Assembly (NCBI RefSeq): GCF_017168335.1 | Contig: NZ_JABFAU010000007.1 | Coordinates: forward strand, 1-64,000 | Direction: 5' to 3' | Length of the DNA: 64,000 nt | Source: Rhodococcus sp. KRD162 | GTDB lineage: Bacteria; Actinomycetota; Actinomycetes; Mycobacteriales; Mycobacteriaceae | Shown: one piece after another, positions 54,879-57,271 of the stretch | Layout of the letters: the number at the start of each line of letters is the position of its first letter | Numbering within the stretch: position 1 is the stretch's first letter | Notes under the pieces: generated by a model | Databases searched by the model: none | What the model was told of the DNA's origin: nothing | Seen by the model: only the letters and a program-made list of their open reading frames with translations | Program-made: the position numbers and the translations under genes

Positions 54879-55430
54879 CTATAACCGTCCTTGCCCAACG
54901 TCATCGTTGGTGAGTGCGGTCATGTGTTCCGTCGGTCGCGCCGGGGCCGAAGCGCGGACCGTAGTGTCCTGATTTTCGACGGCCGTAGCCACACCGTCGA
55001 GCGCGGTACGGATGAGTTCACCGTAGGAATCGTCAGGTAGAGCCGATAGGCGTTCGCGGGCTGCGGTGAGGTGTTCACGGGCGGTGTCGAACGAGCCGAG
55101 GCGACGATAGTTGTCGGCGAGGTTGAGATGGAGTGAGGGATAGAAGCCCTCGATGTGCAGGTTGGTGTGATGTTGTTGGACGCGTTGTTCGCTGACGGCG
55201 TCGGCGGCGTCGAGTGCGCGCACGTCCCACGCGAGGGCTTGTGCAGGATCGGTATGGAGATCGGCCATGTAGTGCGCAAGAGTGCAGCGGTGGAACGGAT
55301 CTCCGCTGACTCCGATGAGCTTCCACAGGTCTTGGAGTTGGGTGCGTGCTGTGTCTGCGTTTCCGCTGCGTCCGTCGGTGACGGCCTGAGCAATGAGGTC
55401 CATCGTCGGGTCCGTGTTTGCGTCTGTCAT
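54879..55430 (-). CDS. TPR-like helical protein
   Basis: A 183-residue protein. ATG 55430 overlaps the stop of the T4CP-clamp fusion (ATGA). Helical repeats of TPR type: HRCTLAHYMADLHTDPAQAL, then SLHLNLADNYRRLGSFDTAR, EHLTAARERLSALPDDSYGE. The C-terminal 30 residues are disordered. It is similar in outline to actinobacterial 'tetratricopeptide' proteins found after small regulatory genes. Its position suggests it works with the clamp-like protein or came with it from the donor locus. No precise function is known. Confidence 0.7.
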   Translation of the reverse strand: MTDANTDPTMDLIAQAVTDGRSGNADTARTQLQDLWKLIGVSGDPFHRCTLAHYMADLHTDPAQALAWDVRALDAADAVSEQRVQQHHTNLHIEGFYPSLHLNLADNYRRLGSFDTAREHLTAARERLSALPDDSYGELIRTALDGVATAVENQDTTVRASAPARPTEHMTALTNDDVGQGRL

Positions 55431-57271
55431 AAGTGGTGCTCCTTCGGTGGCGTGGATTCGTCTGGAGGTGGGGGCATGGTGGGCATAGCGACTGTCGTGA
55501 GGTCGCCGTGGTCGGCGGAGCGAATGGTGGCCGGCTGTGTGTGGCCTCGGAAGTCGATCAGCAGGTCCGCTCCGATTGCGCTGCTGATTGCGGGATAGAG
55601 CGTGGTGAACTCGAACCAGACTTCGATCGGACTTCCGCTTACGCTGGCGGGTATTTCAATACGGTTGTCCGACTCACTATTTCCGATGTCGACGCCAATT
55701 TCAGTGACGCGAAGCCCGATCAGGGCGGCTGAACTGTCCTCAAGAGCCTGTCGGAGCATTGCTGTCGACACTTGGACACGGGTAGTTATCGCTGGCATGT
55801 CATCGAGCATCAACCGGTAGTCAGGGAACGGCTCGGTCAGTAGTCGGCAATACCGGTCATCGCAGTTTGGCAGCCGCATCCACAGGCCGTAGGCGGTGGC
55901 TTCGATCCGTGCCTGCGCAGTCCGTCGTAGATCAGCCAGGCAACTGCGCAGATCATCGCCGTTCACCGTTGCAGCCCACGCTATGGCGGTCGGGTTCGTG
56001 GTTGTCAGGGTTCGAGTGGACAGTCGATAGCGATCGGTTGCTGTCACGGCCACAGTGCCGGTTTGCGCTTCGAAACGCACACCACCCAGTACGGTGACGC
56101 CTGGTTCGTTGCTGGTAGCGGTGAGTACCTGCTCTATCGCTGCCGCCAGTACCGGTCCGCTCATCGCAACCACCGTCGCCGAGGCAATACCGGTCAGCGT
56201 TGATTTGATGGCGTCTGACTGCTGACGTGCGGTTGTAGCGTCCTTGGCTACGGTGTCGACGTGTTCATCGATCAGGCGGATGGCTTCGTCGACATCAGCA
56301 TCCAGAACCGATTTTGCCTCGTCGGACAGCCAGCCGTAGACGTGCAGGAGATCTCCGCCGCCGCACGCGGACGCGGACGCGGACGCGGACGCGGACGCGG
56401 ACGCGGACGCGGACGCGGACATCATCTGCGCAAGTAGTTCCTGTGCGCCGCCGTCGAAGTACGCCTCGATTTTGGCCGAATCATCGCGCGATGCGGCAGC
56501 GAAGTACGAGGCGAGCTTGCGGGCGGCGACGATGGTGTCGATTCCGCGCAGCGGATTCCACCAGAACCCGTCGCTCGTGGTGAGCGGACCTTCGGCGATG
56601 CCTTGCAGGTCGTAGCGCCACACCGTGCCGACCTCCTCGCGGACACCGCGAGTGAAGTCGTGTCCGTCGCGCTTGTTGGAGGTGAACAGCGCCGCGCCGG
56701 GCGCGGTGCACAGTGCGTCGATCGCCAACGCCGCAGTCTTGCCCATACGAGGTCCGGCGAGGGCGAAGAGCATGTCCTCCCATGACATGAATACCTTCTG
56801 GTTGCCCTGGACGGTGCGTCCGACGACGACTCCGATGTCGGAGTCGTCGAGGGTGTCCAACTCGGCAAGATCGGTTCGTAGCGACTTCGCGCGTTCGCGT
56901 GCCTGTTTGCCGGTCACCCCGGTCAGCTTCGATGTCGGTCCCATCAGGCGGGCCTTGGCGTCGACGTCGTTCTTGCCGCTGCCCGTCGCGCGGGCTGCGG
57001 CGGCGACGCCGGTGAGACCGGAGACGATGATCACCGCGATCACGAAGATCCATGTCGATACGCTCGGCCACGTCAGCTTTCCGCCGGCGACCGAGAACAG
57101 CGCCCCGAACGGGTTGACGGGGATATCTTCACCGGTGTCGACGAATACGTGCCCGAGCCACAGTGAGCCGTAACCGAGCGCTATCAACACGATTACCACC
57201 GAGACGGCGATCAGCGGGAACATCGACGACGATGTCCCGGCTCCCTTGGAGGTCGGCTTCTTGGTCACCAT
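55427..57271 (-). CDS. chimeric protein: T4CP N-terminus fused to a DnaN-like sliding-clamp domain
   Basis: 614 residues. Residues 1-318 match the T4CP at 26839-28740: two membrane helices, Walker A GPRMGKT at 173-179, and an end in VYGWLSDE. Walker B and the rest of the motor are absent. A (Ser-Ala)9 tract covers 285-302. Residues 319-370 are a helical linker (SVLDADVDEAIRLIDEHVDT). Residues 372-600 resemble DnaN domains 2-3: VLAAAIEQVLTATSNE, VTATDRYRLSTRTL, EPFPDYRLMLDD, and the end TTVAMPTMPP (compare the YLxMPxR clamp terminus). Clamp domain 1 is not recognisable. ATPase function is probably lost; membrane tethering of a clamp-like domain is the literal reading. Confidence 0.85.
   Translation of the reverse strand: MVTKKPTSKGAGTSSSMFPLIAVSVVIVLIALGYGSLWLGHVFVDTGEDIPVNPFGALFSVAGGKLTWPSVSTWIFVIAVIIVSGLTGVAAAARATGSGKNDVDAKARLMGPTSKLTGVTGKQARERAKSLRTDLAELDTLDDSDIGVVVGRTVQGNQKVFMSWEDMLFALAGPRMGKTAALAIDALCTAPGAALFTSNKRDGHDFTRGVREEVGTVWRYDLQGIAEGPLTTSDGFWWNPLRGIDTIVAARKLASYFAAASRDDSAKIEAYFDGGAQELLAQMMSASASASASASASASASACGGGDLLHVYGWLSDEAKSVLDADVDEAIRLIDEHVDTVAKDATTARQQSDAIKSTLTGIASATVVAMSGPVLAAAIEQVLTATSNEPGVTVLGGVRFEAQTGTVAVTATDRYRLSTRTLTTTNPTAIAWAATVNGDDLRSCLADLRRTAQARIEATAYGLWMRLPNCDDRYCRLLTEPFPDYRLMLDDMPAITTRVQVSTAMLRQALEDSSAALIGLRVTEIGVDIGNSESDNRIEIPASVSGSPIEVWFEFTTLYPAISSAIGADLLIDFRGHTQPATIRSADHGDLTTVAMPTMPPPPDESTPPKEHHL
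56367..56420. repeat. nine tandem GCGGAC hexamers
   Basis: A perfect (GCGGAC)9 array in frame, encoding alternating Ser-Ala in the T4CP-clamp fusion. In the intact T4CP the same place reads MMLAAASADGDLL, so the array expanded from a GCG/GCGGAC-rich spot. It is prone to length change in steps of two residues. Confidence 0.95.

Follow-up and report, generated by a model that had tools for sequence, protein, structure and literature searches.

What does a single gene become when the front of a membrane-bound coupling protein is joined in frame to a part of a DNA sliding clamp? This question is raised by a minus-strand locus in the window analysed here, the whole stretch of 64,000 nucleotides of Rhodococcus sp. 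KRD162 (contig NZ_JABFAU010000007.1, positions 1 to 64,000). A sequence-only reading of the locus offered two answers, a clamp tethered to the membrane that acts on transferred DNA or a recent recombination scar. No paper on a link between T4CPs (coupling proteins) and clamps was found in our literature search, going by titles and the opening lines of abstracts. We traced each part of the gene to its relatives. The features of the locus are listed in Table 1.

Table 1. Features of the chimeric locus and of the related regions of the same contig
Feature	Position	Strand	Basis or remark
Chimeric gene, 614 codons	55427..57271	-	Open frame; T4CP N-terminal half, putative MerR dimer-helix remnant, clamp-like domains 2-3
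T4CP N-terminal half (VirD4/TraG-type), residues 1-318	56318..57271	-	Amino-acid and DNA identity
Two hydrophobic membrane segments, residues 10-45 and 65-96	56984..57244	-	Hydropathy scan
Walker A, AGPRMGKT, residues 172-179	56735..56758	-	Motif scan
Hexamer repeat (ACGCGG), 9 exact units, coding (SA)n	56365..56420	.	TRF
Junction at Ala319	56315..56317	-	Parent type ...YGWLSDEA|NELPQK; MerR-clamp ...GMPLATA|KSVLDAG
Presumed MerR dimerization helix remnant, residues 319-368	56168..56317	-	Alignment with MerR-clamp family
Beta-clamp-like domains 2-3, residues 367-600 (ATDRYRLS, FPDYR, AMP motifs)	55472..56173	-	TIGR00663, phrog_947
TPR-repeat gene, 183 aa	54879..55430	-	ATGA shared with the stop of the chimera
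Partner gene, 220 aa, upstream of T4CP part	57265..57927	-	Homology to intact copy
Upstream leader common to chimera operon and intact copy, 192 bases	57928..58119	-	DNA homology
Intact T4CP, 631 aa, same contig	26839..28734	-	TraG-D_C PF12696, E 2e-32
Partner gene of intact T4CP	28734..29396	-	Homology
Block 96.9% identical to G007:C13, parental plasmid type with intact T4CP	56407..63437	.	DNA comparison

The T4CP half and its parent plasmid type

ORF analysis confirmed that the frame runs from 57271 to 55427 without an internal stop, as the sequence-only reading had it. The same reading took residues 1-318 for a T4CP copy that has membrane helices and Walker A and lacks Walker B, and hydropathy and motif scans together with a DNA identity of 83.2% to the intact T4CP region of the same contig (56402-58119 against 27865-29589) agreed with it. 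Thus the N-terminal membrane segments and the Walker A motif of VirD4/TraG coupling proteins are present, and a weaker third hydrophobic segment lies at residues 361-379, spanning the start of the clamp part. In contrast to VirD4/TraG-type T4CPs, the chimera has nothing of the coupling protein past residue 318 and carries an added SA repeat. The motif scan detected no Walker B in the chimera, whereas a Walker-B-like LGVLDE is present at residue 445 of the intact copy; likewise, the Pfam search gave no TraG-D_C (TraM recognition) domain in the chimera while the intact copy has one.

The nearest T4CPs that we found were not on this contig. Those of G007:C13 and G011:C33 showed 95% and 96% amino-acid identity to chimera residues 1-284, respectively, and both are intact frames of 633 aa. 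Over residues 1-318 the T4CPs of the G007:C13, pA21d2 and pA26BH1 plasmids were 75-96% identical to the chimera, and this plasmid family has the same partner gene upstream. Beyond the block shared with the window, G007:C13 continues with DNA matching the window's other transfer region (10.3-29.6 kb). Of three related plasmids, one has the partner gene annotated as 'TraI DNA relaxase' and the other two as hypothetical; in the window the gene overlaps the chimera by a few bases, as the chimera does the TPR gene. The fusion had been said to keep its regulated promoter, leader and partner gene. Homology bore this out for the partner gene and the 192-base leader, but not for the promoter: a simple sigma-70 scan of 54500-58400 returned no candidate, with 0.6 expected by chance. 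The chimera, TPR and partner proteins had no match in the defence library.

Disrupted copies of this T4CP (L079, L080 and L081) are not unusual in the genus, although these are draft genomes, where sequencing error is possible. In G016 the similarity ends at residue 186; in G025 there is a stop after residue 108 with similarity up to 202; and G002:C40 has a frameshift near residue 190. A further T4CP relative, in G005:C13, contains two stops.

The clamp half and the MerR-clamp regulators

Clamp domains 2-3 had been placed at residues 372-600, and profile searches put them at about 367-600. TIGR00663 (DnaN) matched residues 367-597 with profile positions 126-364 of 367 (E 7.5e-11), phrog_947 (polymerase processivity factor) matched residues 367-600 (E 4.6e-20), and PF02767 was also matched (E 3.3e-7). 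The proposed similarity to DnaN is thereby upheld at the level of sequence profiles for domains 2-3, including the ATDRxRL and FPxxR stretches. However, the TIGR00663 score of 41.6 bits falls below the equivalog cutoff of 137.65, so the C-terminal part is clamp-like and not a DnaN orthologue. DnaN has three clamp domains per subunit, whereas the chimera has no domain 1, is membrane-anchored by its predicted segments and is far from the DnaN orthologues. A single-sequence AlphaFold model of residues 319-614 was poor (mean pLDDT 39, pTM 0.23).

Where this part comes from was revealed by its relatives in the same genus, which the earlier reading had missed. Residues ~320-614 matched proteins some 345-380 aa long with a MerR helix-turn-helix (HTH) at the N-terminus. 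Residues ~320-600 aligned with proteins of this MerR-clamp type end to end at up to 65% identity; in the MerR-clamp proteins the MerR HTH head stands where the chimera has its T4CP half. Residues 320-366 aligned to the stretch after the HTH that would correspond to the dimerization helix of known MerR structures, and in the poor AlphaFold model they formed a helix (2-47) with pLDDT of 70-79 for the first 20 residues only. The chimera's residues ~319-614 are thus the tail of a widespread regulator composed of a MerR HTH, a putative dimer helix and clamp domains 2-3. The sequence-only reading was right about the parts, but overlooked the origin of the clamp half in a MerR-HTH regulator and the stretch that follows the HTH (~320-366).

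This protein family is common. At E 1e-15 or better the clamp half was matched in 130 of 401 genomes of the taxonomic family, the two chimera genomes included, and among 394 class genomes at least 25 rows in at least 24 genomes spanned both the MerR and the clamp parts, while most of the other matches listed covered one half only. Three Streptomyces plasmids (H41-H43) encode the same kind of protein, annotated as MerR family transcriptional regulator; in the family genomes the protein goes unnamed. We inspected the N-termini of 56 loci besides the chimera. A loose pattern found a MerR start in 45 of 46 non-chimera loci, the 46th (L022) having its MerR head out of frame and hence no MerR start; a profile found the MerR head in all ten further loci with long open frames, none of which was another fusion. 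One locus at a contig end (L011) was left out of the family set. Alignment A1 contained 34 loci plus the chimera, with 12 of the 46 omitted (L022, near-copies and odd lengths). MerR_1 (Pfam) was matched by all 34 other members, whereas the chimera gave no match. A profile of the family, with the chimera as one of its 35 rows, matched beta clamps of the PDB (E 6.7e-29) as well as the MerR regulator EcmrR (E 2.1e-13); its matches to EcmrR, BrlR and CueR covered positions 4-115, 1-113 and 2-83, respectively. Compared with these three regulators, the chimera has no HTH and keeps the part after it. Against the family profile, of which it is a member, it scored 394.6 bits. Of the MerR-clamp proteins found, the nearest, in G113, was 65% identical (E 3.8e-117), and since nothing closer was found, the direct donor appears not to be among the proteins searched.

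Conservation within the clamp part is high. Among 31 relatives, those of the 46 collected loci caught by a strict start pattern, 63 columns were conserved in at least 80%, and the chimera keeps 60 of them; the members themselves score 0.80-1.0. The clamp motifs of the chimera and its relatives are, we assume, of the pocket type. Could the chimera then, as first suggested, function as a sliding clamp that is tethered to the membrane and works on DNA in transfer? Domains 2-3 with their putative pocket-type motifs are kept. However, the T4CP motor half is lost and the TIGR00663 score is far under the equivalog cutoff. The absence of domain 1 also speaks against a true sliding clamp, as does the source, which by its domains is a regulator with a MerR head and two clamp domains, not a replication clamp. 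We regard this function as very improbable.

The coupling of the chimera to a downstream TPR-like gene had also been pointed out. The ATGA overlap is there, but it is not a feature of the fusion: a TPR homologue lies downstream in 22 of the 46 MerR-clamp loci (54-79% identity in 21, 29% in one), and the TPR link is therefore independent of the fusion and native to the MerR-clamp operon. The TPR gene is typical of the family without defining it. Loci L034-L061 belong to the family, in which a TPR gene often comes next in the same direction, and the chimera's TPR protein is 79% identical to that of L036. Its own Pfam match, to TPR_12 (E 2.5e-6), reached 28 bits, below the cutoff of 30.1.

No description of the MerR-clamp family was found among the literature matches listed. 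MerR regulators with two sliding-clamp domains as a sensor, often accompanied by a TPR gene, are a larger lead than the chimera and probably the more interesting subject. If such proteins sense replication through clamp-binding peptides, they would represent a new kind of input to gene regulation. Two further observations concern the family: four members (L094, L095, L099 and L103) have in-frame insertions of roughly 20-100 residues in or between the clamp domains, seen as a profile match split in two or three, and on the Streptomyces plasmid pADI95-16b (L059) a dnaE gene is followed, about 3.6 kb downstream, by the MerR-clamp gene.

The junction and its occurrence in two strains

The junction reads ...HVYGWLSDEAKSVLDAD in the chimera, against ...REIGMPLATAKSVLDAG in MerR-clamp proteins and ...HVYGWLSDEANELPQK in the T4CP of the parent type. 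Relatives of both parents have GGCGAA in common at this point, which suggests that the two genes were joined by short homology at GGCGAA. The T4CP half occupies the place of the MerR HTH and of the following stretch up to the helix, which is kept.

The junction might, according to the sequence-only reading, have proved confined to this assembly. In fact, the same gene (612 aa) is present on contig NZ_CAPS01000144 of the independently sequenced Rhodococcus sp. AW25M09, a strain that came from a hagfish off Norway and was sequenced by 454 (PMC3593323). Over 43681-64000 the window and AW25M09 differ by only two substitutions (43684 and 54857) and two length differences, AW25M09 being 5 bases longer at 54860-54861 and 6 bases shorter in the hexamer repeat; beyond 64000 the identity of the window's contig to AW25M09 falls to 98.9% over 7.5 kb. 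The difference at 54857-54861 lies directly downstream of the TPR gene. An assembly artefact might be suspected in a draft of 109 contigs. However, an independent 454 assembly contains the same junction with a different repeat length, and because the junction recurs there an error of assembly is very unlikely; we give it next to no weight.

The repeat lies between Walker A and the junction and is expanded in the chimera. AW25M09 has 7 exact units plus one variant unit that keeps a Phe codon, so its length differs between the two strains, whereas the parent type in G007:C13 has two units (FASACGGG) and no (SA)n.

The search for the junction elsewhere thus yielded one second strain and no more. 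Among 72,556 plasmids no place covered 80% of the chimera, and the clamp half occurred in only three, each annotated MerR; this and some other searches may omit entries from the window's own genome or from genomes close to it. The 401 family and 394 class genomes gave no further chimera among the matches listed. In the matches listed for the 401 genomes, frames long enough for a chimera were found only in G000 (690) and G011 (688), the next longest being 566, and the class rows G417:C1 (profile 30-347, frame 347) and G616 (198-346, frame 229) were too short. Scans with short exact patterns, which find close relatives only, returned AW25M09 alone from the GTDB contigs, and neither a relative nor the exact junction from viral contigs.

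Scar or retained gene

Whether the fusion has been under selection was approached through its T4CP part. Compared with the G007 T4CP, this part gave dN 0.0225 and dS 0.172, a ratio of 0.13 (NG86), and the intact T4CPs of two close relatives gave 0.14 by the same method. With G011:C33 as the third sequence, the private changes were 8 nonsynonymous to 25 synonymous in the chimera and 4:9 in G007 (p 0.72); with the more distant G007:C15 they were 6:12 and 1:13, respectively (p 0.10), the latter comparison giving, on small numbers, a hint of faster protein change in the chimera. The polarised counts were therefore mixed, and relaxed selection on the T4CP part was not clearly found. No stop has arisen in either strain. 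By these measures neither half looks clearly decayed, and the fusion would be either young or constrained; the pattern cannot separate the two because most of the history it records may precede the fusion.

A rival explanation is that the chimera has been domesticated: the T4CP half would anchor the protein in the membrane and provide a base for oligomerization, the SA repeat would be the linker, and at the membrane the clamp-like half would bind the TPR protein or a clamp-motif peptide; such a protein might, for instance, poison the intact T4CP hexamer or remove a replication ligand. The frame is open in two strains, dN/dS of the T4CP half is low, the clamp columns are conserved and the joint to the TPR gene is kept as in the native operon. 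However, no divergent second example appeared among the matches listed from the 401 family and 394 class genomes. The two copies also differ too little for selection since the fusion to be visible, and the repeat has grown within the NTPase half. Domestication is thus an unlikely, though not negligible, explanation. A proposal with more detail is that a membrane-anchored clamp-fold protein, made from a T4CP and a MerR-clamp regulator and kept by selection, has its length tuned by a fast-mutating Ser-Ala linker that varies between near-identical plasmids, and would keep the TPR partner, or a peptide that binds clamps, at the site of transfer. We consider this rather improbable.

It could also be supposed that expression from internal starts yields the C-terminal part alone or the TPR protein alone, the T4CP half being a long leader that supplies transcription. 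An ATG stands at residue 370, where the clamp domain begins, and the TPR ATG has AAGGAG 8 bases before it. However, among the starts listed (residues ~314 to ~417) the one at residue 370 shows no clear ribosome site within the preceding 22 bases, and this arrangement seems quite doubtful.

The recombination scar was the better fit of the two original readings. The identity of both halves, the junction to within a few bases, the occurrence in two strains and the second, intact T4CP on the contig are plain observations, and the gene is a genuine in-frame chimera, probably formed by illegitimate recombination within a mosaic plasmid of Rhodococcus; we regard it as most likely a scar. Several comparisons argue for this: the near-parental intact T4CPs (95-96%) and the 96.9% block of G007:C13; the alignment of the clamp half to MerR-clamp proteins from the junction onward; the practically identical DNA of the two copies, with long frames only in G000 and G011 among the matches listed; the intact T4CP on the contig, the repeat expansion and the other disrupted T4CPs in the genus; and the presence of MerR_1 in 34/34 other members against none in the chimera. 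On the other side, the dN/dS of 0.13, the 60/63 clamp columns kept and the lack of stops would fit constraint as well. Two genes of the same strand will join in frame in one of three cases, and for this reason the open frame is weak evidence of function.

According to the scar reading, a second, partly deleted transfer region would have been joined inside its T4CP gene to a MerR-clamp-TPR operon by a deletion-and-joining event, with T4CP residues 1-318 taking the place of the MerR DNA-binding head. Lacking Walker B and the TraM-recognition domain, the product would presumably be unable to act as a T4CP motor, and without an HTH it could not be a DNA-binding regulator. If translated, it would be a membrane-anchored clamp-fold decoy. 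The downstream TPR gene would be the part most likely still to matter, and it may now be read from the partner-T4CP leader, with its putative promoter, instead of the regulator's own upstream DNA. As both parent types and the junction are known, the chimera would illustrate how mosaic plasmids build domain combinations by in-frame illegitimate joining.

Other features of the window were also noted. Upstream of the chimera operon, within the G007:C13 block, lies a type IIG restriction enzyme-methyltransferase (58877-62308; PADLOC PDLC03631, E 3e-281), adjoined by an AbiJ-like protein on the plus strand (61907-63265; PADLOC E 1.4e-18). A self-match to the opposite strand marks a perfect 48-base palindrome at 17146-17193.
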